In this document: piece after piece, positions 1-16,782 of the stretch
Layout of the letters: each line of letters begins with the position of its first letter
How positions within the stretch are numbered: the first letter of the stretch is position 1
Virus record (IMG/VR): IMGVR_UViG_3300029319_000577
Location: 1 to 22,093 of that record
Source of the DNA: a virus
DNA length: 22,093 nt
Reading direction: 5' to 3' (one strand)
Position numbers and translations under genes: made by a program
The notes under the pieces: generated by a model
Seen by the model: the letters and a program-made list of their open reading frames with translations, nothing else
What the model was told of the DNA's origin: nothing
Databases searched by the model: none

Positions 1-112
1 CTTCCTCTGTTAGACCAGCAGCCAACAAGTCTTCATCCCGATTGACTTCGGAGATGTAGGCTTGCCAGCACTTGTCGCCTTGGTAGTCTTTAAATCTGTC
101 TTGTGGATTCAT
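1..112 (-). CDS. 5' end of an unidentified small gene (partial)
   Basis: An ATG on the minus strand at 112-110 overlaps the TGA stop of the DnaE-type polymerase gene (111-109) in an ATGA arrangement, the usual sign of translational coupling. The frame stays open to the window edge. It gives about 37 residues beginning MNPQDRFKDYQGDKCWQAYI, followed by an acidic stretch (EVNRDEDLLAAGLTEE). The product is hydrophilic, with no signal peptide or known motif. I do not recognise it. The coupling suggests it is made with the polymerase and could be an accessory factor, but that is inference. It is truncated by the window, so its length is unknown. Confidence 0.6.
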   Translation of the reverse strand, partial: MNPQDRFKDYQGDKCWQAYISEVNRDEDLLAAGLTEE

Positions 113-3100
113 AGCACTCTGAAGTTATGGTAGATAGAGCGAGTGGAGAAGCCCCACTGATCATTGTAGTCTAGCTTGGCGATGTAAGTTCTATTCTTTT
201 GAATATGATCCTTGTCTGGATTCGCACCCCAGCATCTTATCTGGGTTATAGCATTGTTAGAATCTACGACTTCAAGAACATAATATGTTTTATCATTTTT
301 TGTTTTTCTAATCGCCACTTTCCGAGGAATAAACCAAGTTACCTTTAAATCAGAGTCAAACTCTGATATTGGAGGGATGCCTGAGTCCATTAGGTTTTTC
401 TGCGTCTCCTCGCTGACTATCATTCTAATGGGAAAAACCCCAGTCAAGGCAGTTAGAGATTCTATCTTTTCCTCAACACTAAATTCTCCCTCCGGTGCAT
501 ACTTCTTTATATTGTCCAGAAGGTGTTGTTTTTTTCTGGGTCTGTCAACAGCAACGCAAGTCCAAAAATGCTTATCTCCCGTGAACCTATCATCTTGCAA
601 GGTACTCAAAGCGCCTGCCTGACACAATACATCTAGCGCCTTTTTATTTAATTTTGAATAGACCACATCATCATGGAACAAAAACTCCTCAATTTTATTA
701 AACGGTCGATGCTCAAGTATTTGATCCATAGCAGAAGATCCCAAGCCCTTAATCGATGTCAAGGGCTGAATTAGCGTCTTGCCATCATCACTAATCTCCC
801 ACACCTTGCCAGATGTATTGACATTCAAAGGCTCAATCTTAAACCCCATAGACTTGGCAACCCCAATAGCTTTTTCTTTTCTGCTATCTGGCTCTTTGTC
901 AAGGAACGCTGCCATCCACTCTGCTGGATAATAGTTGAGCAACCAAGCGCATTGGAAAGACAGGATAGAGTAAGATACTGCATGTGACTTGTTGAAGCCG
1001 TAGCCAGAGAAGTACTCAAAGTTATTCCATAGTCCGTTAGCTTGCTCCTCGGTCATCTTCTTGTTGACACAGCCCTTCACAAACTTCTTACGGATCTTTT
1101 CCTTCTCTTGTGCACCCTTACCAGTTCCTTTCTTTGTCAGCAACTTGCGAAGTAGATTGCCCTCATCAAGGCTGATATTTTCTCCGAGTTGATGCGCCAA
1201 AGATGCAATCTGCTCTTGGAAGATAAGAAAGCCATAGGTCTCCTTCGTTACATCCTTAACTTGCTTGTTTGCATAAAAAACATCTTTCGGATTCTCTTTG
1301 GCTTTTACATACTTCTTGTCCACATTAGCACCCAAAGGACCGGGGCGATAGATAGATGTAATAGCTGAGATGTCGATAATATTCTTGGGCTTCGCCTTCT
1401 TGCAGAAGTTCTGTGCTCCACTCTCTGTGAACTGAAAGATGCCAGCCCACTTGCCCTTGTGAAAGATGTTCTTATACACCTTAGAATCTTTCAGGTCAAT
1501 CTTATCTGGGTGAAGATGTTCGTCGTAATAGTCCCGCACATCCTTAAAGGTTGGATTTGGGTTGTTGTGATGCCGCTTAAGGATGTGCCGGATCGCTGTC
1601 TCTACCATACGCAGAGATGCCAAACCAAGAACATCAAACTTAATAAAACCTAGAGGCTCCAAGTGGCGAACATTCTGTCCCTCAGACCATGGAGTTTGAA
1701 TAACTCCCCCACTCCTAATCAGAGGCATGTGCTTGTCTAGGTCTTCGCCCACAACAACCCCACCTGCGTGTCTACTTGTGCTGCGAACCTGACCGTAGAT
1801 AACCTTAATATGATCCTTGATGTGCGGATACTTTCTTAAATAATTTTGCAGACTTTCAGAGAACTCCATCAACTCATCAAATGTAGGAGTGTACACGCCA
1901 GCCTTAATACCATGCTTTGCTTTAGCCTTGGGCGTTGCTTCGGCTACCATGCGAGATGTAACCGAATTCGCCTCCGCAAATGGAATATCATACAATTTGG
2001 ATATATCCTTAACAAGAGACTTCAGTTGCAAAGTATTAAAGTTGGAGATTGGAACCACGGTTGTAGTCCCCCACTTGTCTTGCATAATCTCTTTGAGTTC
2101 CATAGGGCTGGATACATCGTAATCAATATCAGGGTAGTCAGTTGCATCTTTACGAAGGAAGCGAGCGAACTGTAGTCCGTACTTGATTGGGTCAACCTGT
2201 GTAATGCCTAGCGCATAAGCCACAAGGGAACCAGCAGCAGAACCACGACCCGGACCAGCCAGTTGGTTTTCCGTTGCTGTGTCTGCAATGGCTTTCATAG
2301 TAAGAAAGTATTTGCTAAACCCTCGGTCAGAAATCACAGAGAGTTCTTCCTCTAGTCTCGCCTTATACTCGGAATTAGTTAAAAGCCCAAGTTTATTGAG
2401 ACTTTCTAGGCTAATTGTCTCTAGCGCAGCATCAGCCGTGTGTCCGTCAGGGACAACGAAAGAAGGCAATCTTACCTCATTATCCGGCATAAAATCTTCG
2501 ATAAGGTTAAATGCTATGTTGTGCGTCTCAGTAATTGAATCCATAACCAAGTCATCGTCATACTCTACTCCATTTAGTTCTGTGTAGTGTTTGTAGCTTT
2601 CCCACATCTGGTCGCCGTTCTTTGGGTAGAGTTCGTAGCCAACTTCCGCTACGCTCTCTGGTAGTTCATCCGACAGCCAAGATGGCTTACCTTTCCCTAG
2701 AAACCCTAGTCGCTTGTAGAGTTCTCTGTCTTTCCAAGTCTCTGGGTTTGGGTAGTGGCTGTCTGCTGTAGAGATTAGCTTGATGCCAAACTCCTTGTGC
2801 ATCTGAATGACCAGTTTGTTGATCATATGTTGTTTCTTGTCAGTGTGCCATTGGAGTTCGCCATACCAGCGGTCACCAAAGATGTCAACCATTCTCTTAG
2901 TTGTATCCCTAAACGCATCCTCACAGCCTTCTTGGTCGGTGATACATTCATTCTCGTTGTCCCAGAACTTCCAGAAGTTGGCTGCGTATACGCCGCCCAT
3001 ACAAGCAGAAGCAGCAATGACGCCTTCGCTGTGCTCCTTCAGTACCTCGTAGTCTACTCGTGGATACCGAAAGAAGTATTCATCTGAGTTGGACTTAGAG

Positions 3101-3543
3101 ATCATAGCAAAGATATTATTTAATCCTGTCTGGTTCTGGGCTAGAAGGATAAGGTGTGAGCGTTGGTTTAGAATGCTCTTTGACCTTTTAGTCTCGGCTT
3201 CATTCTCAACGGACATAGTTGTGCTGTCCTTGAGTTCGCTGGCTCTTTTCTTGTCTTCCTTAGCCTTGTCTCGCTCTTGGTTCCACGCCTCAAGGCTGGG
3301 GATGAAGTAAGCTTCCACACCAAAGATGGGCTTGAAGTTCTTACCCTCTGCTTTCATCTTCTTGGCGTGTAGGACTTGATATGCCATACCGTTCATGTTG
3401 CCGTGGTCTGTCAAGGCTAGAGCCTCGCAGCCATTCTCATAGGCATAGTCCATGTGGTCTTGTGGGTAGCCGAGCGCATCAAAAGGCGATCCTGCTACTG
3501 AATGTGCATGTAATCCTACAAATGGTATGTTACTCTTTTTCAA
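109..3543 (-). CDS. dnaE: DNA polymerase III alpha subunit, DnaE type, with PHP domain
   Basis: This 1144-residue protein is a family C replicative DNA polymerase, close in length to E. coli alpha (1160). The N-terminal PHP domain carries likely metal ligands: H12/H14 in LHAHSV, D46/H47 in TDHG, E77 in GVEAYF, H130, C181, and D261/H263 in TADSHY. These look intact, so PHP-based 3'-5' proofreading is plausible. A charged insertion of about 45 residues lies at roughly 83-128. The palm has GPGRGSAAGS (430-439), PDIDYD (471-476, catalytic D474 and D476) and KFDVLGL (third Asp, D637). LIFQEQ and FNKSHAVSYS follow, then a helix-hairpin-helix (GLGSSAMDQI) and a C-terminal OB-like segment. The start is TTG at 3543, supported by AGGAG six bases upstream. 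The gene overlaps the preceding one by 14 bases. Phages rarely carry a full DnaE; this one also has a family A polymerase. Confidence 0.96.
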   Translation of the reverse strand: MKKSNIPFVGLHAHSVAGSPFDALGYPQDHMDYAYENGCEALALTDHGNMNGMAYQVLHAKKMKAEGKNFKPIFGVEAYFIPSLEAWNQERDKAKEDKKRASELKDSTTMSVENEAETKRSKSILNQRSHLILLAQNQTGLNNIFAMISKSNSDEYFFRYPRVDYEVLKEHSEGVIAASACMGGVYAANFWKFWDNENECITDQEGCEDAFRDTTKRMVDIFGDRWYGELQWHTDKKQHMINKLVIQMHKEFGIKLISTADSHYPNPETWKDRELYKRLGFLGKGKPSWLSDELPESVAEVGYELYPKNGDQMWESYKHYTELNGVEYDDDLVMDSITETHNIAFNLIEDFMPDNEVRLPSFVVPDGHTADAALETISLESLNKLGLLTNSEYKARLEEELSVISDRGFSKYFLTMKAIADTATENQLAGPGRGSAAGSLVAYALGITQVDPIKYGLQFARFLRKDATDYPDIDYDVSSPMELKEIMQDKWGTTTVVPISNFNTLQLKSLVKDISKLYDIPFAEANSVTSRMVAEATPKAKAKHGIKAGVYTPTFDELMEFSESLQNYLRKYPHIKDHIKVIYGQVRSTSRHAGGVVVGEDLDKHMPLIRSGGVIQTPWSEGQNVRHLEPLGFIKFDVLGLASLRMVETAIRHILKRHHNNPNPTFKDVRDYYDEHLHPDKIDLKDSKVYKNIFHKGKWAGIFQFTESGAQNFCKKAKPKNIIDISAITSIYRPGPLGANVDKKYVKAKENPKDVFYANKQVKDVTKETYGFLIFQEQIASLAHQLGENISLDEGNLLRKLLTKKGTGKGAQEKEKIRKKFVKGCVNKKMTEEQANGLWNNFEYFSGYGFNKSHAVSYSILSFQCAWLLNYYPAEWMAAFLDKEPDSRKEKAIGVAKSMGFKIEPLNVNTSGKVWEISDDGKTLIQPLTSIKGLGSSAMDQILEHRPFNKIEEFLFHDDVVYSKLNKKALDVLCQAGALSTLQDDRFTGDKHFWTCVAVDRPRKKQHLLDNIKKYAPEGEFSVEEKIESLTALTGVFPIRMIVSEETQKNLMDSGIPPISEFDSDLKVTWFIPRKVAIRKTKNDKTYYVLEVVDSNNAITQIRCWGANPDKDHIQKNRTYIAKLDYNDQWGFSTRSIYHNFRVL

Positions 3544-4414
3544 TCTCTTCTCCTATCCTGTGAAACAGTTTACCTTTCAAAAGTGAGTTATGCCTATGTA
3601 TTCTATGGTCTGAACCAAGATAAGCCCTTAATTTATCCCAGCTATCAATGTTGTAGTATTCAGCAAGACTCACTACTTTTGCCCCATTAGTATCTCCTAT
3701 TCCAAATACATTGTCAAGTGAAAAATATCTTGCTGAGTATCTTTCTTCTAGTGGTAGCTTTTCTGAAGGATATTCACCTGCTGGAGTCGGCTTGTATGCT
3801 CCCGTGGAGGTTTTCTTTAGGTGATCTCTGTACTCTTTGTACTCTTCTTCGTCAAATGTAAAGCCAAGATACTCACCATCCTTGACAGTCTCGCCATTGT
3901 ATTCTAAATAAAAAGACTGTTCAGAGTAGATTGCTTTTCTATGTTCTCTTAAAATAGACGGATTATAAACGCCATATGGAAAGGCTATATAATATTTGAA
4001 TGGCTTAAGCCACCTACTCATATTCGCCGATACTCTAAAGGCAGTGTTGGCTCCATGAAGGACGCTCCAAGATAAGCAATCCCTCTTGTCTCTGTCGTTT
4101 GGGTGAACAGGCACATAATAAATTGCGATGCGCTTGTTGTTTTGCTTGATGTGTCCGGGGTCGTGCTTCCTAAAAATATATACTGGGTCTTGGACATAAT
4201 CACCCAAGCGAGACTTTATTAGCGGCTGGGCACCGTCGTTGGCGACAATCCATATGGTTTTGCAACCAGCAAACGCACATTCCAAGACTGCTCTTTCGAT
4301 AGCAAGATAGTTTGGTCCGATTGGCTGCAAGCAGTCACTCCAAGGAAATCCAAAGTCTAGTGGCTGGGATGCTACAGGAATAATACCAGCCAAGTGTTTA
4401 TTGTCTATAAGCAA
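3530..4414 (-). CDS. Sugar-nucleotidyltransferase-like protein (divergent)
   Basis: This 294-residue protein has an N-terminal half shaped like the GT-A/Rossmann nucleotidyltransferases (the RmlA/GlmU type). AGIIPVA (9-15) matches the first beta strand. FGFPWSDCLQPIGPN (21-35) sits where those enzymes have GTRLxPLT and KP. AIERAVLECAFAGCKTIWIVAND (38-60) matches their conserved helix-strand ending in a loop, and SWSVLHGANTAF (115-126) resembles the GTAGAV region. The canonical GxGTRxxP loop is absent, so activity and substrate are uncertain. The C-terminal 100 residues are acidic and unrecognised. Only TTG (4414, or 4393) fits the fold as a start, and the Shine-Dalgarno match is weak. The gene overlaps cysteine synthase by 10 bases and dnaE by 14, so expression is probably coupled. 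A role in making a modified sugar or nucleotide is possible but unproven. Confidence 0.55.
   Translation of the reverse strand: MLIDNKHLAGIIPVASQPLDFGFPWSDCLQPIGPNYLAIERAVLECAFAGCKTIWIVANDGAQPLIKSRLGDYVQDPVYIFRKHDPGHIKQNNKRIAIYYVPVHPNDRDKRDCLSWSVLHGANTAFRVSANMSRWLKPFKYYIAFPYGVYNPSILREHRKAIYSEQSFYLEYNGETVKDGEYLGFTFDEEEYKEYRDHLKKTSTGAYKPTPAGEYPSEKLPLEERYSARYFSLDNVFGIGDTNGAKVVSLAEYYNIDSWDKLRAYLGSDHRIHRHNSLLKGKLFHRIGEEIEKE
3550..3554 (-). promoter_or_regulatory. Shine-Dalgarno site for the TTG start of dnaE
   Basis: The minus strand reads AGGAG here, six bases before TTG at 3543-3541. No ATG or GTG in frame lies before the PHP domain begins, so this site decides the start. It lies inside the end of the preceding nucleotidyltransferase-like gene. 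Confidence 0.65.
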
Positions 4415-5271
4415 GATAGGTACCGTTCGCCTCTATCGCAAAGTATTGTTACAACTATTCCATTTGGATTGTTTTGTTCAATCCACCTTTCTGATGCTAA
4501 CACATTTGCCCCCGAACTTATACCCACGAGTAATCCTCTTTGGTGGAGTTGTTTCATTCTTTTAATGGCATCATCAGTCTTTACCAATAATACCTCATCT
4601 ACCTTATCCAAGTCAACTAAAAACTTTGAGCCATCTCCGATACCTTGGATACCATGTAACCCCGGCTCACCGCCACTCATTACAGGAGACTCTGCTGGCT
4701 CTATGGCTAGAGTTTTAATGTTGGGGTATCTCTCTTTTAGTCTGGCTGAAACTCCCATTAGGGTTCCGCCTGTACCTGTGCCGTCTAGGAATGCGGCGAC
4801 TGGTAAGCCCTTGGTCTGCTCTAGTATCTCTACGCCTGTGGTTTCATAGTGGCAAGCGATGTTATCTAGGTTGTGAAACTGGTTGAAGTTAAAGAAGCCG
4901 GGGTCTTTACAGATCTTATCCCTAAGACCGATTGAACCGTCAAAGTCACCGGGGTCTGTTTGTATAACTTCCGCTCCGAACATACGCATCATCTGCTTGC
5001 GTTCTTCGCTCATGTTCGAGGGCATTACAATGATAACTGGGTATCCTTTGCTAGCTCCGAACATAGAGACAGCGATACCAGTGTTGCCACTAGTAGCCTC
5101 CACAATAGTGTCTCCCGGTTTTAGATCGCCCCTTTCCTCTGCTTTCTTAAGAATATAATGCCCTATCCTATCCTTAATGCTTCCGCTTGGATTGTATGTT
5201 TCAAACTTCGCATACAATCTATCGCCAAGCTTAATCAAGGGAGTATTTCCTACCAGCCTGTCTAAGTTCAA
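4405..5271 (-). CDS. cysK: Cysteine synthase (O-acetylserine sulfhydrylase family)
   Basis: This 288-residue fold-type II PLP enzyme is expected to convert O-acetylserine plus sulfide to cysteine and acetate. The family motifs are all visible: LVGNTPLIKL (6-15); NPSGSIKDR (27-35), in which K33 should form the Schiff base with PLP; the substrate loop ATSGNTG (59-65); MPSNMSEERK; the phosphate cradle GTGTGGT (164-170); GIQGIGDG; and GISSGAN near the C terminus. The protein is slightly shorter than the usual 300-320 residues, but no catalytic element is missing. The start is TTG at 5271, one base after the stop of the Gly/Met-rich gene; no ATG precedes the first family motif. It is an auxiliary metabolic gene in a phage. 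CysK and CysM subtypes cannot be separated by eye, and a different nucleophile is possible. Confidence 0.92.
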   Translation of the reverse strand: MNLDRLVGNTPLIKLGDRLYAKFETYNPSGSIKDRIGHYILKKAEERGDLKPGDTIVEATSGNTGIAVSMFGASKGYPVIIVMPSNMSEERKQMMRMFGAEVIQTDPGDFDGSIGLRDKICKDPGFFNFNQFHNLDNIACHYETTGVEILEQTKGLPVAAFLDGTGTGGTLMGVSARLKERYPNIKTLAIEPAESPVMSGGEPGLHGIQGIGDGSKFLVDLDKVDEVLLVKTDDAIKRMKQLHQRGLLVGISSGANVLASERWIEQNNPNGIVVTILCDRGERYLSCL

Positions 5272-6735: not shown

Positions 6736-6984
6736 TTAGTTTGCTTTTTTATAAGAATTATTAACTTTGTCTTTTTCCATAAACAGCTTAGGAGTATCGT
6801 AACTATCGTTTTTATACTTGTTAGACTCTTTTATATCATACATATTAAAATCTTTTAACACTTGATCTTTTGCTTTATCAGAGCTAACATATTTTATTAG
6901 ATAATTTATTTTATCACTCTCATCTGCAAACACAGGACCCGCTGTTGCCATAATACCAGCAATAACAATAATAGCAGTTTTCAT
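6736..6984 (-). CDS. Small exported protein with signal peptide
   Basis: This gene encodes 82 residues from ATG at 6984, with GAGGTGA six bases upstream; a TTG directly before the ATG is not needed. Residues 1-20 form a classic Sec signal peptide: K2, a hydrophobic core (AIIVIAGIMATAG) and a VFA cleavage site before DESDK. The mature part of about 62 residues is charged, Lys/Asp/Asn/Tyr-rich, and has no Cys. I recognise no family. It would act in the periplasm or outside the cell. Phage proteins of this kind sometimes alter the envelope or block superinfection, but nothing here shows that directly. It lies just past an intrinsic terminator, so its expression depends on read-through or on an unseen promoter. 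Confidence 0.8.
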   Translation of the reverse strand: MKTAIIVIAGIMATAGPVFADESDKINYLIKYVSSDKAKDQVLKDFNMYDIKESNKYKNDSYDTPKLFMEKDKVNNSYKKAN

Positions 6985-7002
6985 CAAAATTCACCTCTTC
7001 AC

Positions 7003-7712: not shown

Positions 7713-9581
7713 TTACTTAATTTCACATGCGCCGCCAGCGCAAGCTAGTTCGCCTGATAGGTCTGTGTTGTCCTCTACTTCAATAACTTTTGTCAAGTCT
7801 ACTTCCTCTAGGGTCGCCAGCATAACCTCGTAGGTTTCCTTAGAGCAGTCCTCAAACGGAGCTTGCTTGTAAGTGCCTCCGTCATAATTCAACACAGATA
7901 AACCATTATAAACGCCTCGGTTCTCCCACATCCACTCGCCAACATCAGCCCATTCTGCCTCCTTGATTGAGATCGTAGCAGACACATTATGCGTGTTTTG
8001 TCCACTTCTCGTTCCGGGCTTAACCCACTCTGAACTTATCTTGGCTACTCTTTTTAAAAGCTGAAGGGCGCTTTCCGTTCTCATTATTGCACCCTCTGGT
8101 GCTTTTTGTGGCACAGAAATAACTGCCGTGTCGTGTGGTCTGAAATACTCGTCCAAGACCATATCTGGGTGGTAGATTGACAAATATGTATAGATTGCTT
8201 CGTTCTTGCCTACGCGCAATCTGCGAATGTAATAGTCGTTATGCCATGCATGAATTCCACTAGATGTGCCCACTGTTAAAGAAGTAGTTCCCGCTGGCTT
8301 AACTGTGGTTGTTCTGGCTGCTTTCTTTACCCCGATGAGCTTTGCAACTCTTTCGTTTTCTATCTTAACCACATTGCATGCTTCGGTCGTGTCCAAATTC
8401 AGTATTTTTCCAGAGGCGATTCCAGTCATGCTGACGCCTATTAGTGCCTCTTTTTCCGTCGTCCTTCTCCAAATATCTCGCAGGTAATGGAAGTCGGTGT
8501 AGCCTGCTTGCAGTGTTCCGATAAAGGCAGCGGCTCTCACACGGCTATTCAATTCTCCTTGGCTCTCAACATCGCTTACATTTACCTCTGTTAGATTACA
8601 GAACTGATATGGTCGGAGTGCGATTTCACAACAAGGGTTGGTACCCCAGTCTTTGTCATTAGAAAAATAAAATCCCGGCTCTCCACTACCGGACTCTTTC
8701 ACTCTCTCCCAAAGATCTTGGAAGTATTCTTTGGTGATTCGATGGCGAAGAAGCACAACAGAGTTATTCGCTCTGCCTCGCTGTGGTGCTGTCTCCCACC
8801 AGTTACCAGTCTTGGCAGCGATCATTTCGTTATCATCAGCAGAGAATAGAGAGATAAGAGCGGCGCGGCGGATGCCTCCCGCAAGAACTGCATCAGCGAT
8901 GTGGCAGATCATGTCGTGGGCTTCAATCGTAGTGAGCTTATCTCCATTTTCTTTGGCTTCAAACATGCCCTGAAGTTTTACTAGACACTCTTTAAGGGGT
9001 TGTGGACCCGGAGCTTTGCCACCAGAGGTAACAAGTCGAGCACCTTTTGGGCGAATATCAGAATAGTCGAATCGAAGTTTTGATCCGCCTTTGAAATACG
9101 ATTGGACCAAAGCCTTAACTGCATCTGCCCAGCCTTCAATAGAGTCATTCACCAAGAAGCGGCGTGTTCTTTTAGAAACAGGCTTTTGAATCTCTGGTAG
9201 TTTTTCTACATGGTGTTTCTGTACGCTGTACCCAACCCCTGTTCCTCCCAAAAGCAAGAACATGATCTCACTGAACACTCTCCAGTCATCGATAGGCGCG
9301 AAGGCGCAGTTGTAAATTCGATTTGGCGCTACTTCAATTGGCTTGCCACCAAACTGCATGGAGCGCATGGAGGGTAAAACCTTTTTGTCATACACCATTT
9401 GGTAGGCAGTATTAATTTCACCTTCAAGTTCTGGGTATTTTTTTATGTGCATAGCTTTATTTCTATCCACGATCTCTGCCCATGTTTCTCTGCGCTCTTT
9501 TTCGGGCAAATATCTTGCATATTTCATATGCACCGTGATATCAGATAATATATCTCTCGCTACTTTATCTTTGTCTGTCAT
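7713..9581 (-). CDS. nrdJ: Adenosylcobalamin-dependent (class II) ribonucleotide reductase
   Basis: This 622-residue enzyme should reduce ribonucleotides to deoxyribonucleotides using a radical made from coenzyme B12. It therefore needs no NrdB subunit, and none is seen. Visible active-site features are C92 in IYNCAF and C328 in QFCNL (the substrate-reducing pair), and NPCCEI (315-320), giving N315, thiyl-radical C317 and E319. PAGTTSLTVGTSSGIHAWHNDYYIRR marks the class II barrel. The C-terminal CAGGAC (C614/C619) is the re-reducing cysteine pair. The length is below the 739 of the Lactobacillus leichmannii monomeric enzyme, but no catalytic residue is missing. ATG at 9581 lies 14 bases after the helicase stop. 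It supplies dNTPs for phage replication, and dependence on B12 implies a host that makes or imports it. Confidence 0.95.
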   Translation of the reverse strand: MTDKDKVARDILSDITVHMKYARYLPEKERRETWAEIVDRNKAMHIKKYPELEGEINTAYQMVYDKKVLPSMRSMQFGGKPIEVAPNRIYNCAFAPIDDWRVFSEIMFLLLGGTGVGYSVQKHHVEKLPEIQKPVSKRTRRFLVNDSIEGWADAVKALVQSYFKGGSKLRFDYSDIRPKGARLVTSGGKAPGPQPLKECLVKLQGMFEAKENGDKLTTIEAHDMICHIADAVLAGGIRRAALISLFSADDNEMIAAKTGNWWETAPQRGRANNSVVLLRHRITKEYFQDLWERVKESGSGEPGFYFSNDKDWGTNPCCEIALRPYQFCNLTEVNVSDVESQGELNSRVRAAAFIGTLQAGYTDFHYLRDIWRRTTEKEALIGVSMTGIASGKILNLDTTEACNVVKIENERVAKLIGVKKAARTTTVKPAGTTSLTVGTSSGIHAWHNDYYIRRLRVGKNEAIYTYLSIYHPDMVLDEYFRPHDTAVISVPQKAPEGAIMRTESALQLLKRVAKISSEWVKPGTRSGQNTHNVSATISIKEAEWADVGEWMWENRGVYNGLSVLNYDGGTYKQAPFEDCSKETYEVMLATLEEVDLTKVIEVEDNTDLSGELACAGGACEIK

Positions 9582-10951: not shown

Positions 10952-11919
10952 TAATTACCTTCCTTGCTCTGCACTACCATTTTTCTAAATAAAGCAAACA
11001 AATCTGCCAAGTCATATGCACCAAAACCGTCAATCATCATCATAGTCTGAATGCCTGTCTTATTAAACATTAGCTTTGGATCTCTTAACATCGCCCTAAT
11101 ATACTGTGCACTTTGGGCTGAGATGTTGGGGGCATACAACTGCATCATCTTGTAGTTCTTTTCAATCAGTTCTCTCTTCTCAACGATGTTCTTAAAAACC
11201 TTGAGTTTGCTGTCAACACCTTCGGCATACTCAACTAGCTCTTGTATTGTGTATGATTTTTCCTCGGAAAGGAAAGGAAATCGCTTAGATACAGTCGGTA
11301 AACCCGCTCCGCCGATGCCGGGAAGGTTGTCACTCTTGTCACCTGCGATTGCCCTAGCAAGTGCGAAGTTTGTTGGGTGGATATCATACTGCTCTAGGAT
11401 TCTCTTTTTGTTAAGAATCTCTTTCTGAATTGGTCTGTACAAGATGGTTGAGTCGTCGCACAACTGAATAAAATCCTTGTCGGAACTTAGAATAATTTTG
11501 TGGTATTCCGACAGGGCTTGAGACTGAGAGACTAGGGCGATAATATCGTCAGCCTCCACATTCTCAACATAAGACTGCATAATTGGCATCTCATTTAGAT
11601 ACTCGATCAGCCTTTGTTGTTGCCAGTTTTTATTGTCTTCCTGCTCGCCAGCAGTCATGTTGTGAATATCCCTGTTAAGACGAACGGGTTTGCGACCAGC
11701 CTTGTAGTTCTTGTCAATGGACTTGCGTTTTTGAGAGCCACCGTCCCAAGCGACAAAGATTAGGTCTGGGTTGATTGTTCTACAAACAGATTGAAGGGAT
11801 TTTAGAAATCCCTTTGTTCCTCCGATTGGTTGCCCATTAGTTGATAGGCTGGGGTCTACAATATAGTTCCTCATAAAAAGGTTTAACGCATCTATGAGGA
11901 GTACTCTTTTCTTAGTCAT
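10951..11919 (-). CDS. 5'-3' exonuclease / RNase H (FEN family)
   Basis: This 322-residue protein resembles T4 RNase H and the PolA 5' nuclease domain, and should remove RNA primers from Okazaki fragments. The acidic metal-binding residues are in order: D10 in LLIDALNLF, D59 in FVAWDGG, VEADD (121-125), SSDKDF (D147, D149), and GDKSDNLPGIGG (D194, D197) with the helix-hairpin-helix. The helical-arch basic patch KRKSIDKNYKAGRKP (64-78) is present. The length fits the family (T4 305). ATG at 11919 overlaps the upstream coiled-coil gene by 8 bases, and its stop overlaps the helicase start. Because the family A polymerase here lacks a nuclease domain, this gene supplies that activity separately. 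Confidence 0.94.
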   Translation of the reverse strand: MTKKRVLLIDALNLFMRNYIVDPSLSTNGQPIGGTKGFLKSLQSVCRTINPDLIFVAWDGGSQKRKSIDKNYKAGRKPVRLNRDIHNMTAGEQEDNKNWQQQRLIEYLNEMPIMQSYVENVEADDIIALVSQSQALSEYHKIILSSDKDFIQLCDDSTILYRPIQKEILNKKRILEQYDIHPTNFALARAIAGDKSDNLPGIGGAGLPTVSKRFPFLSEEKSYTIQELVEYAEGVDSKLKVFKNIVEKRELIEKNYKMMQLYAPNISAQSAQYIRAMLRDPKLMFNKTGIQTMMMIDGFGAYDLADLFALFRKMVVQSKEGN

Positions 11920-12094
11920 TACCTTGCTCGTTGTTGAGTTCTTTTAGTATTGCTTCCAATTCTTCTTCGAGCTTTTCTTTGTCTTTTTCGCAGTCATAAT
12001 CTTCACTGATTAGTGAATCAATAAAGTAAAACGCCTCTTGAATTAACTCTTCCTTGTTTTCTAAAAGATGCCTTAAGCGATTTAGTCGTTCCAC
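11912..12094 (-). CDS. Small acidic coiled-coil protein
   Basis: This gene encodes 60 residues from GTG at 12094, with AGGAGG eight bases upstream; no ATG is available nearby. The product is helical and strongly acidic, with heptad-like spacing in its second half (KEKLEEELEAILKELNN), suggesting a dimerising coiled coil. It has one Cys and no membrane or signal segment. It overlaps the 5' nuclease gene by 8 bases, so a role alongside the replication proteins is possible. No family is recognised. Confidence 0.72.
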   Translation of the reverse strand: MERLNRLRHLLENKEELIQEAFYFIDSLISEDYDCEKDKEKLEEELEAILKELNNEQGND

Positions 12095-12150
12095 ACTACA
12101 GTCCTCCTCCTATACATATAGGGGATAGCAAAAGAAAAAGCTAAGTTAAT

Positions 12151-12354
12151 TTAAATCAGCCTTGCCCACGGAAAGCGACCGCTGTACAGATAAGGGTCAA
12201 ATCCTCTCGCTTTATAGATCGATATTTTCTTTAAGTTTGCTTTGCCAGAATAGAAATATACTTTTGTCACTTCTTCTTTCTTAGGCTCAGATGCTTGAGC
12301 ACTTCCAATTATTCCCATAGTCATCAATAGTGCGAAAATAATTTTTGTATTCAT
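12151..12354 (-). CDS. Small exported protein with signal peptide
   Basis: This gene encodes 67 residues from ATG at 12354, with GGGAGAA upstream. Residues 1-21 form a Sec signal peptide: K4, a hydrophobic core (IIFALLMTMGIIG) and SAQA before SEPKKEE. The mature peptide of about 46 residues has an acidic/basic start, VYFYSG, a Lys-rich middle, and an aromatic C terminus (GFDPYLYSGRFPWARLI). I recognise no family. It is the first gene after a promoter, so it is probably expressed strongly. The aromatic tail might contact membrane or a surface protein, but that is inference. Confidence 0.75.
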   Translation of the reverse strand: MNTKIIFALLMTMGIIGSAQASEPKKEEVTKVYFYSGKANLKKISIYKARGFDPYLYSGRFPWARLI

Positions 12355-12420: not shown

Positions 12421-12762
12421 TTAGTGGCGGTGGGAATATTTTTTCTTTTTGTATTTCTTGTATTTTTTGTACTTTTTCTTATACTTCTTTTTATACTTTT
12501 TCTTTTTATAATACTTTTTCTTGTAGTTCTTTTTGTAATACTTTTTCTTGTAGTGTGCATGCCCCTTGTACTTATGGGGATGACTATGATAGTGGCTGCT
12601 GTGAGTGTGCCAGTAGTGGTCATAGTATTCATAAACTACTTGGTATGAAGGGTACACGATGTAGTATTCTTCATGCTCGTGGTGCGAGTTGTGAGTGGAG
12701 TGGGCGAAAGCACATCCTGACAGGAGTGCTAGAAACAAAGCTAGGGTGATAATTCTTTTCAT
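12421..12762 (-). CDS. His/Lys/Tyr-rich lipoprotein-like exported protein
   Basis: This gene encodes 113 residues from ATG at 12762, with CGGAGGTT just upstream. The N terminus is a signal peptide (MKRIITLALFLALLSGC) ending in a lipobox, LSGC, with C17 as the possible lipidated Cys. AFA before H21 offers an alternative ordinary cleavage site. Residues 21-72 are His- and Tyr-rich, holding 14 His, many in HxH pairs. Residues 73-109 are almost only Lys and Tyr in YKKK/KKY units, ending SHRH. Such a product would be very basic and could bind metals, envelope polyanions or nucleic acid. I recognise no family. It could be a surface-acting phage protein (for example exclusion), or a low-complexity gene still expanding. 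Its own promoter is not obvious; read-through from recA is likely. Confidence 0.7.
   Translation of the reverse strand: MKRIITLALFLALLSGCAFAHSTHNSHHEHEEYYIVYPSYQVVYEYYDHYWHTHSSHYHSHPHKYKGHAHYKKKYYKKNYKKKYYKKKKYKKKYKKKYKKYKKYKKKKYSHRH
12509..12554 (-). repeat. 19-base direct repeat inside the Lys/Tyr tract
   Basis: The plus-strand sequence TAATACTTTTTCTTGTAGT occurs at 12509-12527 and again at 12536-12554, a period of 27 bases (nine codons). It preserves the frame of the Lys/Tyr repeats. Shorter ACTTTTTCTT units flank it, suggesting growth by slippage or unequal exchange. Confidence 0.8.
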
Positions 12763-12802
12763 GTTAACCTCCGTTCTTTTGTTAGACGAAATTTAGAAAA
12801 GT

Positions 12803-13906
12803 TTATTCACTCTTTTCTTCATAAAAATCTTCAGCCTTACCCAATCGCTGGTCGAACTTCTGAATGACTTCCTCATCCATAACATCGTAAACACGCTGCT
12901 TGAAGGCTGGATCTGCCATCTTTTGTTCCCACTTCGAAGGCTGAAACTTTTCTACTTTGCCATCGCCCATTTCCAAAGAATACCAAGCGCCAGAGGAGGT
13001 CATATACTTTGAGCCTTTGATTGCCTCAAACAAACTTTGGTCATCTTGTACACCGATGTCATCGGTACCCCAAAGAATCTTAAAGTTGCATTGGCGACCT
13101 TGGGTTCCAAACCTACTCTTCTCCAGTTTAACCTTAACCTCAGAGCCAATACGGAAACCACTTTCATCTGTGATGTAAGCAGCCTTAGCCTTGCGACCTG
13201 TCAGCCAGACACGCAAAGAATATGCGTAGATCATAGCCTTGCCACCGGGAGTGACATATGGGGTGGTCAAAGCCTCCGCTGGTCTATTGGTAATGTTAGT
13301 CTTCAGCTGGTTAAGTACCAAGAATGTTGATTGACTATTGGCAATCGGAACAGTCAACTTTGACATGCCTTTAGCCAAGATTCTTGCCTTTACTGCCATG
13401 GAAGACTGTGGATTAAAGTCTCCTTCCACATCGGAAATAGCAGGTGTAAGAGCAAGAGAATCCCAGATAAAAAGCATCCGATTTTCATTATTAGCCAAAA
13501 GGTCTTCGATAGTTTCGAGTACAAACTCAACAGACTGAGCTTGAACATATAAAAGAGTACTGACATCACATCCTGCCTTTTCTAAGAACGCAGGATCAAT
13601 AGCAGACTCAGAATCAAAATAAACTACATCAATACCTTTCTTCTGAGCGTTGGCTGCGACTTGTGCCGCCAAGAATGACTTACCTGTTGCTTCAAGACCT
13701 GCAATCTCCGTTACTTTGCCGACTGGTATACCGGCTAGCTTTCCTTTACAAATAATAGAATCTAGCCACCTAGACCCTGTGGGAATCCAATCCGTAACTT
13801 CGGTTGGGTTTTCCTCATTTAGGTTATGTGCCACAGTCATACCCGCTCGCTTATTAATCAGCTTACGCATATCAGCCATGGACAATTTACCTGCTACTTT
13901 TGCCAT
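12803..13906 (-). CDS. uvsX: RecA/UvsX-type recombinase
   Basis: This 367-residue strand-exchange ATPase has a core with PTGSRWLDSII (the RecA entry motif), Walker A GLEATGKS (70-77), FDSE with catalytic E100, Walker B LFIWDS (D149), and LVLNQL with N199/Q200 (the allosteric Gln loop). A PGGKAMIYAYSLRVWL strand follows, as in RecA. The N-terminal helix and an acidic C terminus (EDFYEEKSE) are kept. The length lies between E. coli RecA (353) and T4 UvsX (391). ATG at 13906 has AGGAGA directly upstream. It follows an intrinsic terminator after the SSB gene, and no promoter fits in the 14 bases between, so it depends on read-through. It likely serves recombination-dependent replication with the gp32-like SSB. 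Confidence 0.93.
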   Translation of the reverse strand: MAKVAGKLSMADMRKLINKRAGMTVAHNLNEENPTEVTDWIPTGSRWLDSIICKGKLAGIPVGKVTEIAGLEATGKSFLAAQVAANAQKKGIDVVYFDSESAIDPAFLEKAGCDVSTLLYVQAQSVEFVLETIEDLLANNENRMLFIWDSLALTPAISDVEGDFNPQSSMAVKARILAKGMSKLTVPIANSQSTFLVLNQLKTNITNRPAEALTTPYVTPGGKAMIYAYSLRVWLTGRKAKAAYITDESGFRIGSEVKVKLEKSRFGTQGRQCNFKILWGTDDIGVQDDQSLFEAIKGSKYMTSSGAWYSLEMGDGKVEKFQPSKWEQKMADPAFKQRVYDVMDEEVIQKFDQRLGKAEDFYEEKSE

Positions 13907-14761: not shown

Positions 14762-15604
14762 TTATTGTATCTGATTACTTCTTGCGACGAAATAAGCGTA
14801 TTTCTGCTCGTAATTGGTGGGAAAGACGCCATAAGTTATCTTTACATCTTCCATTTGTGGCTTTTCTAAAATTTGCTCTTTGATGTTGTTTAGAAGTTTC
14901 TTGTCAGTCTTCAACTCTTCTTCAGGGATTGCATAGTAATATGACTTTTCCTTAAGGTTATCTAAGTCAAAAAACGGGCTTTCTTCTCCTGTGTCGGGGT
15001 TTAGAATCCCAAAGGTTGCCAATCTGGTTGTTTCATTTGGCTTAGAGAAGGTCCCTATGATTTTCTTTTGGTTCCTAAACACATTAACCATATGAATTGT
15101 TGACACAAGCACCTCATTCAAAAAGTCATAATATCCCATAATAGGTGCTCCGTCAATGATTTTGTCCAACAGAGCGTTGTCAACCAGATACATATTTTCA
15201 AATACTCCTGATCTTGCATATTCTTGGAGAACTTTGTAGCAGGTTTTTTCTTGCAGAGTCCTCAACTCTGACAAGGAATCCATATCGGGTCTGATGTAGA
15301 GAATGTTTATTTTTGTTTTCTTGCGAAGATATTCCAAGATGCGTAAAGCGGCACCGGATATAATTGAAGCACCAGACACAACGAAGAGTGCCTCGCCCTC
15401 TATGTTGTTGAACCTATTAGACAAATTGGGTACTTTGCTTTCATATTGCTCTGGGTGGTCGCACTCGTCCAATTCAATAAACCGAGAAGTACCAATGTCT
15501 TCTGGTAATTCCCAGTCGATTGTATACCCATTGTATTGGGGGTATTGCAAAAACTTACTTACGATATTGTGCCCAACGGAGCCTAGCCCCACTATTGTAT
15601 ACAT
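14762..15604 (-). CDS. Divergent tubulin/FtsZ-like protein (putative)
   Basis: This 280-residue protein matches, by eye, the order of elements in FtsZ-type GTPases. YTIVGLGSVGHNIVSKF (2-18) aligns with the first FtsZ strand and loop (KVIGVGGGGGNAV). EALFVVSGASIISGAALRIL (71-90) sits where tubulins have the GGGTG(S/T)G signature. INILYIRPDM matches the next strand, TVAVVTKPF. SELRTLQEKTCYKVL and MYLVDNALLDKII match the R...A..G..L helix and the IPNDKLL segment. GYYDFLNEVLVSTIHMV matches the core helix with its conserved Asn. The nucleotide-binding glycine loop is degenerate (SGASIISG), so GTP use is uncertain. A Rossmann NAD-binding protein is the main alternative. ATG at 15604 overlaps the end of the polymerase gene by 13 bases. 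Phage tubulins (PhuZ, TubZ) position DNA; a similar job here is speculation. Confidence 0.5.
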   Translation of the reverse strand: MYTIVGLGSVGHNIVSKFLQYPQYNGYTIDWELPEDIGTSRFIELDECDHPEQYESKVPNLSNRFNNIEGEALFVVSGASIISGAALRILEYLRKKTKINILYIRPDMDSLSELRTLQEKTCYKVLQEYARSGVFENMYLVDNALLDKIIDGAPIMGYYDFLNEVLVSTIHMVNVFRNQKKIIGTFSKPNETTRLATFGILNPDTGEESPFFDLDNLKEKSYYYAIPEEELKTDKKLLNNIKEQILEKPQMEDVKITYGVFPTNYEQKYAYFVARSNQIQ

Positions 15605-16782
15605 AACTCTTTCATCTCTCCGAAGTTTTTTCCTGCCGACACATTTACTTTGAATACGCCAAAGGGTGTATTTGAGAACTCTTTGACTAACATGTTTATC
15701 ACACTTAGATCTTGTTTGTCAAGGTCTAAAACGATACTGTCATGAATAATAAATGCAATGTTTGATTTTAAATCTTGCAGTGCTTCTTTTATCAAAAAAG
15801 CCCTGTCCATAATCAAATCACTACATGTGCTTTGAATGATATAATTCAATGAGTGATACTCATCGCTTTCTATTTCTCTTTTGTAATAGTTTTTTACAGA
15901 CTTACCATCCCAATATTCATTCATTACTTTCTTTCTGTCATAGTGCTTGTCCAAGGCTTTATCTTTAGAATTAGGATTGTAAAGCCATGAAAAGATATTC
16001 TTCTTTGCTTGATCTCTACTAATGCCCCCCTCGTACAAATTCTTAATGTTCCAGTCGTGAATGTCCCCATCTGGTTGGGACATGCCAAGCAAGCCTATCA
16101 ACACCCTTAGTTCCGCCGCATTGTAATCTAGTTCAACAAACATGTCGTTGTTTGGCTGAAGTACTTTGCGAAACCTTTTGTCCATTGTCAAAATAGGAAA
16201 CGAATTCTTCTTCGTTGTTAGCCTGCCTGTTTTAGTGCCAAATGGATTATAATTGATATAGGGATAAGTGGACTGAAGTCTCTTGTGAAGCTCTCTTGCT
16301 CTTGGATTCTCGTAGTTTTCTTTGAGAACGTCCAAATTAAGGTTTAGTTTTTGATTGGAGATTTCGGTTACCATAGATACAATGCTTCTTTGCAAGCTGT
16401 AATTCTCTGGCTTAGGATAGTTTTCCAAGACATGCTCTGTTATTTTATTTTTTACCTTGCATAAGTCTATAAGGTATTGCTCTGGGATTAAATCATAAAA
16501 ACAATTTTGATTCAGATCTATCTTGGCAACTTGAAATGACTTGTAGAAAGCTCTCATTTTTTTCCAAACTGCTTCCAGCTCTTCCTTATATTGGGGTGGG
16601 CATATCTCGTGTAGTGTTTTACCGCCACAATATATCTGGGCAAACTGAATTTTTTCATTTTCTAAAAAAGAAGAAAATGACCAAGTTTTAGACAAATTAG
16701 AGGGAATATGGTCGTGCACCAACTGTCCTTCGACATAAATGCCCACACAATGCTCTTTTTCATCTAATGCTTGAAATAACAA
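15592..16782 (-). CDS. Short family A DNA polymerase without exonuclease domain
   Basis: This 396-residue protein holds the polymerase part of a PolA/T7-type enzyme. FGTKTGRLTTKKNSFPIL (181-198) is the thumb/template motif and RFRKVLQPNN (203-212) precedes motif A. Motif A is ELDYNAAELRVL (217-228, catalytic D219). Motif B is around R256-Y268 (RDQAKKNIFSWLY). YIIQSTCSDLIMDRA follows, then motif C IIHDSIVLDL (345-354, H347/D348), with Ser replacing the usual Glu after HD. The N-terminal 130 residues are unlike a 3'-5' exonuclease and lack its DxE pattern. The start appears to be TTG at 16782, one base after the upstream stop, with GGGA nearby; no ATG is available in the first 75 codons. It could be a lagging-strand, repair or primer-filling polymerase beside DnaE. 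The end overlaps the tubulin-like gene. Confidence 0.88.
   Translation of the reverse strand: MLFQALDEKEHCVGIYVEGQLVHDHIPSNLSKTWSFSSFLENEKIQFAQIYCGGKTLHEICPPQYKEELEAVWKKMRAFYKSFQVAKIDLNQNCFYDLIPEQYLIDLCKVKNKITEHVLENYPKPENYSLQRSIVSMVTEISNQKLNLNLDVLKENYENPRARELHKRLQSTYPYINYNPFGTKTGRLTTKKNSFPILTMDKRFRKVLQPNNDMFVELDYNAAELRVLIGLLGMSQPDGDIHDWNIKNLYEGGISRDQAKKNIFSWLYNPNSKDKALDKHYDRKKVMNEYWDGKSVKNYYKREIESDEYHSLNYIIQSTCSDLIMDRAFLIKEALQDLKSNIAFIIHDSIVLDLDKQDLSVINMLVKEFSNTPFGVFKVNVSAGKNFGEMKELCIQ

Follow-up and report, generated by a model that had tools for sequence, protein, structure and literature searches.

Described envelope proteins of phages

Phage T4 encodes two small superinfection exclusion proteins, Spackle (gp61.3) and Imm, in its replication gene cluster near uvsX; genes 61 and 41 flank spackle (sp), a short distance from uvsX, and genes 42 and 43 flank imm. 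Spackle, made early and located in the periplasm, inhibits the tail lysozyme gp5 of a phage trying to enter; it is folded, helical and disulfide-containing and binds to a basic patch on the lysozyme (PMC7677548). Llp of phage T5 is a periplasmic phage lipoprotein which blocks FhuA (PMC9586334). Ltp of Streptococcus phages is built from a lipid anchor, a spacer and a repeat domain, and charge is thought to matter in its binding to the tape-measure protein (PMC3952083). Proteins of lysis act on the envelope as well. Disruptins are diverse phage-encoded antimicrobial peptides whose archetype (phiKT type) is a short amphipathic helix, and an identifiable spanin is absent in 13% of the tailed phages of Gram-negative hosts (PMC12819732). 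Of 528 two-component spanins, 507 carry a periplasmic Cys in one subunit or in both (PMC6139136).

The DNA analysed here, called the window in the following, is a stretch of 22,093 nucleotides from a virus (IMG/VR virus record IMGVR_UViG_3300029319_000577). Downstream of its recA gene it codes for a small exported protein, and this position, which we call the slot, holds such proteins in many related loci. Like Spackle and Imm, the slot protein is a small exported or membrane protein from a replication gene cluster near uvsX, but slot proteins are unfolded by prediction, strongly basic and without sequence match to these two. With Llp and Cor it shares the predicted nature of a small phage lipoprotein in the periplasm; these are, however, folded and disulfide-bonded, Llp binds the single receptor FhuA, and neither carries a His/Lys/Tyr tail. 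The general layout of Ltp is similar too, yet Ltp belongs to phages of Gram-positive hosts and its charge is opposite, negatively charged residues of the repeat domain being thought to bind the tape-measure protein. Finally, disruptins are likewise cationic peptides encoded by phages with a possible action on the outer membrane, whereas the slot protein has a signal peptide, usually together with a lipobox, and the Tyr spacing of its tail shows no helical periodicity.

With PHROG and with BLAST against 50,697 phage records (low-complexity filter on, which lowers the sensitivity) we found no sequence relation to Spackle, Imm, Llp, Cor or Ltp. The window protein had no match at all in these records and none better than 0.04 in PHROG, types D and E of the slot protein (see below) had no homologue among phage isolates in filtered BLAST searches, and a pattern scan of 84,980 prokaryote genomes did not reveal any protein of the window type. 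By the sequence searches run the slot protein is thus not a member of the known exclusion, spanin or disruptin families, though it may work like one of them. Our literature search retrieved no paper on this combination of features.

The gene and its product

The gene and its surroundings are as follows.

11912..12094, minus strand: small, strongly acidic open reading frame of 60 aa (about a third Asp+Glu), between the slot and the 5'-3' exonuclease
12151-12354, minus strand: small protein with a signal-peptide-like start (MNTKIIFALLMTMGIIGSAQAS...), no Pfam match above cut-off
12421..12762, minus strand: gene of the exported His/Lys/Tyr protein, 113 aa (MKRIITLALFLALLSGCAFAHSTHNSHHEHEEYYIVYPSYQVVYEYYDHYWHTHSSHYHSHPHKYKGHAHYKKKYYKKNYKKKYYKKKKYKKKYKKKYKKYKKYKKKKYSHRH), orthologues in 18 loci
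12436..12552, minus strand: Lys/Tyr tail, residues 71-109, length varying by whole codons
12553..12711, minus strand: His/aromatic middle, residues 18-70, with the motifs YWHTH, YHSH and KYKxH (alignment A1)
12700-12711, minus strand: AFA-H, signal-peptidase-I-like site, residues 18-21, directly after the lipobox Cys
12712..12762, minus strand: signal peptide region with the lipobox LSGC, residues 1-17 (Pfam LPAM_1, 21.6 bits, cut-off 20)
12763..12802, minus strand: gap between recA and the gene, 40 nt, with a GGAGG ribosome-binding site; the gap is short in most relatives as well
12803..13906, minus strand: recA/uvsX-like recombinase (Pfam RecA 1.5e-35; PHROG 97, UvsX-like, 1.2e-55), upstream neighbour and anchor of the slot

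An earlier note on this DNA, made from the letters alone, had pointed to an open reading frame at 12421-12762 without giving its strand. The frame holds and lies on the minus strand. Its product contains 16 His, as had been counted, 29 Lys and 22 Tyr in 113 aa. The almost pure Lys/Tyr tail, described as about 37 residues long, comprises 38 Lys or Tyr among the 39 residues 71-109 and is followed by SHRH at the end of the protein (SHHH in most relatives). In the DNA below the tail we recovered the noted repeat of 27 bases, albeit as an imperfect one (12464-12546, 3.2 copies, 79%; 12500-12554, 2.0 copies, 96%), and additionally a period of 42 bases.

The proposed signal peptide with lipobox LSGC agrees with the Pfam model of the prokaryotic lipoprotein attachment site (LPAM_1), which matches residues 1-18 above its curated cut-off. 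The window protein therefore has the signal peptide, the lipobox and the Cys at +1 of a bacterial-type lipoprotein; no other Cys is present in the mature protein. The putative lipidation is likely but not certain because the AFA-H site directly adjoins the lipobox Cys and the orthologue of locus L014 has LSGS instead.

Orthologues were found in 18 loci by a pattern scan of IMG/VR, and a profile search gave the identical 18. The frame is open in all of them, with lengths of 89-116 aa and a ribosome-binding site of like kind. The length differences amount to whole codons and fall mostly into the tail. Apart from L014, the lipobox Cys (C17) is kept in all loci (17/18); AFA-H, unlike the anchor Cys, is invariant in alignment A1, in which the His/aromatic middle is the most conserved part of the mature protein. 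For the 13 distinct sequences, dN/dS from summed ratios is 0.055 for the whole gene; the tail, in which the two Lys codons occur freely mixed, has 0.032. Of the other five frames, four are interrupted by stops in all sequences, and the fifth is open in 4 of 13. As the frame, the whole-codon indels and the low dN/dS are kept in the relatives, we conclude from the sequences that the window gene is no chance frame but encodes a real protein under purifying selection. The earlier note had named absence from relatives or frameshifts in the tract as arguments against a maintained protein; the 18 related contigs display neither, and they do display the conserved synteny with variable repeat number for which it had proposed to search.

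A slot for exported basic proteins downstream of recA

RecA was used as anchor to collect related loci, and 147 distinct loci in which the sequence continues for 450 bp or more downstream of recA were taken. A protein was called exported and basic when it had a hydrophobic N-terminus and a mature part in which H+K+R made up 20% or more and D+E no more than 8%; genes and signal peptides were called by simple purpose-written rules, not by SignalP or Prodigal. An exported basic protein, rich in Lys/Arg and usually in His, lies between recA and the exonuclease in 93 of the 147 loci. Correction by hand raises this number to 96, since we added four loci that the gene caller had overlooked and dropped one false call; the rejected call, in L157, resembles a membrane enzyme. 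The remaining 51 loci (about a third) have other genes or nothing in the slot. Applied equally to all genes, the rule picks only 9 of the 1,680 other distinct genes in these loci, and 5 of the 9 resemble slot genes that are truncated by a contig end or lie beyond the stretch scanned, which leaves about 4 of roughly 1,675; the rule was set after the first examples, so the contrast is somewhat inflated and the exact ratio should not be over-read. The protein is, as had been stated, very unusual when compared to phage isolates, but within this uncultured clade such proteins are common at the slot.

The slot proteins fall into types A (the window type) to J, i.e. A, B, C, D, E, F, G, H, I and J, and a number of singles. 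Type B consists largely of Lys, Tyr and Val with almost no His, types D and E carry W..G.W motifs, and type I proteins reach 532 aa. The long slot proteins of L044, L049 and L053 (about 495-532 aa) combine a His/Tyr-rich N-terminal part with a long Arg/Lys/Gln tail. The slot gene is separated from recA by about 40 nt in types A and B and in most of type D.

Among 88 distinct slot proteins the mature part has a median pI of 11.7 and a median His content of 12.8%. A lipobox is present in 59 and absent from 29. A His directly after an AxA site is found in 64, belonging to several types, and 41 have both this His and the lipobox; none of 19 other exported-looking proteins of these loci has His at this place. 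Export and positive charge, both predicted by the earlier note, are thus well supported at the level of sequence by signal peptide, lipobox or AxA site and pI. Its description as surface-anchored stands in part: lipid anchoring appears usual but not universal, as the proteins without lipobox show the signal-peptidase-I-like site alone, and neither the membrane nor its face is indicated.

AlphaFold gives no confident fold, with a mean pLDDT of 60 for type A and of 58 for type D, which is drawn with a weak hairpin; both values are insufficient for a fold search. In type A (alignment of 13 rows) residues 69-112 are drawn as helix with pLDDT of about 60-88, but the Tyr spacing does not have the 100-degree periodicity which the Tyr stripe of an amphipathic helix would produce. 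Pfam and PHROG yielded nothing useful on the small slot proteins except the lipoprotein signal and one match to the WXXGXW repeat family (PF12779) in the type E protein of L108 (22.4 bits, cut-off 18), the sole scanned slot protein above the cut-off of a named domain family. The W..G.W hairpin of type D resembles this repeat, which Pfam does not detect in the type A protein of the window; for PF12779 our literature search gave one passing mention and no described function. Judged by these models, composition and not fold is what the slot proteins have in common.

Exchange of the slot protein

In a RecA tree of the 147 rows (FastTree) the supported clade of the window has an exported basic protein in all 21 rows, and these are of type A in 15, type B in five and type X in one. 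The clearest case is locus L020. Its RecA is 98.4% identical to that of the window, yet its slot protein is of type B and unrelated to the window protein by alignment (z 0.8 over shuffles); the nucleotide similarity of the two loci ends at the end of recA and returns at the exonuclease. Generally, the mature part of the window protein aligns with types B, C, D, E and F no better than with shuffled sequences. Somewhat higher scores were obtained for the window against L076 (z 3.6) and for type D against type E (z 3.0); these pairs may be distant kin or may merely share composition. On the RecA tree at least 26 changes of type and 13 changes between presence and absence are required. From the mixed types within one RecA clade, the swap in L020 and the changes on the tree it follows that the content of the slot is exchanged while its exported basic character is kept.

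That a similar exported and positively charged protein is found at the slot despite these swaps suggests a common job in the bacterial envelope. One could go further and propose that this large clade of uncultured T4-type phages reserves the place behind recA for some exported polycation, irrespective of its exact sequence, so that unrelated proteins of like composition interchange. We consider this possible but rather doubtful. If true, a phage would here encode an envelope function in composition and not in fold, a kind undescribed among exclusion and lysis proteins. In any case, one odd protein has led to a testable rule, namely that a fixed slot keeps an exported basic protein while the sequence is exchanged, and recA together with the slot could serve as marker for finding and typing this phage group, for which we found no close cultured relative here.

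Possible role of the slot protein

The earlier note had suggested binding of metals, LPS or DNA, help in lysis or blocking of competing phages; the evidence allows to rank these candidate roles only weakly. We infer timing, partner and role of the slot protein as follows. It would be a small envelope protein whose signal peptide directs export and which probably carries a lipid anchor in most relatives. The mature part, for which no fold is predicted, would probably act through bulk chemistry, that is, through the His/aromatic stretch and the strongly positive tail. The gap of 40 nt suggests co-expression with recA; both genes are probably on one transcript and the protein would be made during replication and not as a late lysis product. 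Its charge suggests an anionic partner in the envelope, and in the periplasm the tail could bind either to the envelope itself (LPS or other phosphate of the outer membrane, or peptidoglycan) or to an incoming phage (its DNA or parts of its tail). The most likely benefit would be interference with superinfecting phages. We rank exclusion first because sp and imm of T4 are found in the replication region, Spackle is early and periplasmic and a small lipoprotein of T5 excludes.

An envelope-directed polycation made with RecA and interfering with a superinfecting phage is thus our preferred proposal, and a tentative one which we would not yet call probable. Spackle and Llp are folded and have a specific partner, whereas the slot protein looks disordered in the models. 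In addition, 51 of the 147 loci are without slot protein, so the clade does not always need such a protein there. The dN/dS values, furthermore, point to conservation and not to the rapid evolution expected of a gene engaged in a receptor-specific arms race. Promoters do not help: the T4-type late promoter TATAAATA is absent from the whole window, even at the structural genes, and is therefore uninformative on the timing of the slot gene, and a scan for sigma-70 promoters and terminators gave no more hits than in shuffles. Should the role be exclusion or envelope remodelling, a charge-based mechanism would be added to the folded, partner-specific ones of T4 and T5.

The main rival to exclusion is help in lysis, which we regard as unlikely. 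Similar to a disruptin, a periplasmic polycation would displace the counter-ions of LPS and weaken the outer membrane, and the envelope would break after endolysin action. Strong positive charge together with aromatic residues is reminiscent of cationic antimicrobial peptides, disruptins exist as phage-encoded cationic peptides (PMC12819732), and unrelated types sharing one slot fit a job which any polycation can do. However, the slot gene sits with recA and gp32 and not in a recognisable lysis cassette. We searched for lysis genes of the clade with three Pfam families only; an Amidase_2 (endolysin-like) gene is tens of kb or more away from recA in three large relatives, and thus the slot is not beside this possible lysis gene, and phage lysozyme and M15 peptidase were not found above cut-off in the large relatives. 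The Tyr spacing of the tail gives no signal at 100 degrees and lends no support to an amphipathic helix, and producing a toxic periplasmic peptide early would be costly. A far more remote candidate is an outer-membrane spanin subunit. The protein would suit as a small lipoprotein of variable sequence, and gene convergence is described among spanins (PMC6139136), but the lipobox is absent from several types (E, G), and the mature window protein has no Cys beyond that of the lipobox. No overlapping or adjacent gene for the inner-membrane partner exists, the neighbours being recA, small open reading frames without a membrane-anchored coiled-coil partner, and the exonuclease.

Somewhat less likely than help in lysis is a periplasmic buffer for metals or protons, in which a His-rich chelator holds copper, zinc, nickel or iron during infection and the basic tail is the tether to the envelope. 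The high median content of His and the His after AxA in 64 of 88 slot proteins against 0 of 19 controls speak for it. Types B and C, however, occupy the slot with almost no His, namely 2 in 85 and 1 in 78 residues, and metal binding can therefore not be the shared need; metal genes were not noticed among the neighbours either. We hardly give credence to the view that the gene is a low-complexity by-product which drifts under repeat expansion and has no role as protein. The imperfect DNA repeats of 27 and 42 bases and the variable tail would be explained, but a dN/dS of about 0.06 contradicts this view, indels are in-frame only, the position is fixed and the gene is replaced by proteins of like character.

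Phage, neighbours and host

Further genes of the window are the following.

109-3543, minus strand: DnaE/PHP-type polymerase III alpha subunit
4405-5271, minus strand: cysteine-synthase-like PLP enzyme (PALP 1.2e-65), a possible metabolic gene
6736-6987, minus strand: small protein with a signal-peptide-like start (MMKTAIIVIAGIMATAGPVFAD...), no Pfam match above cut-off
7713-9581, minus strand: ribonucleotide reductase, 622 aa, with a match to the B12-dependent insertion domain
15592-16782, minus strand: polymerase-I-like protein

The window also codes for gp32, a DnaB-type helicase and a baseplate wedge subunit, which together with the UvsX-like RecA point to a distant T4-type phage. The best RecA match among isolates is 33%, and related contigs are up to 186 kb long. 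We observe that the polymerase III alpha subunit and the polymerase-I-like protein occur together in the window of one T4-type phage. The acidic open reading frame is seen next to slot types A and B; this association with the basic slot protein is only suggestive, as it could be a partner or unrelated. A protein of 107 aa, similar to the small ones with signal-peptide-like start and also exported-looking, is encoded by the relative G009 at 11814-12137.

That the host is Gram-negative is an assumption. A single RecA match in genomes, the WOR-3 MAG L092 (CP070664.1), was rejected as host because recA is truncated and stretches are masked; phage genes stand there between bacterial genes in a bacterial contig, which looks like a chimeric assembly or a phage remnant. 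The relative G001 (L251-L260) carries several genes for acidic lipoprotein-like proteins, e.g., at 23744-24178, 25036-25272 and 176247-178409, one of them with a von-Willebrand-like stretch, and these genes may hint at the host lineage.
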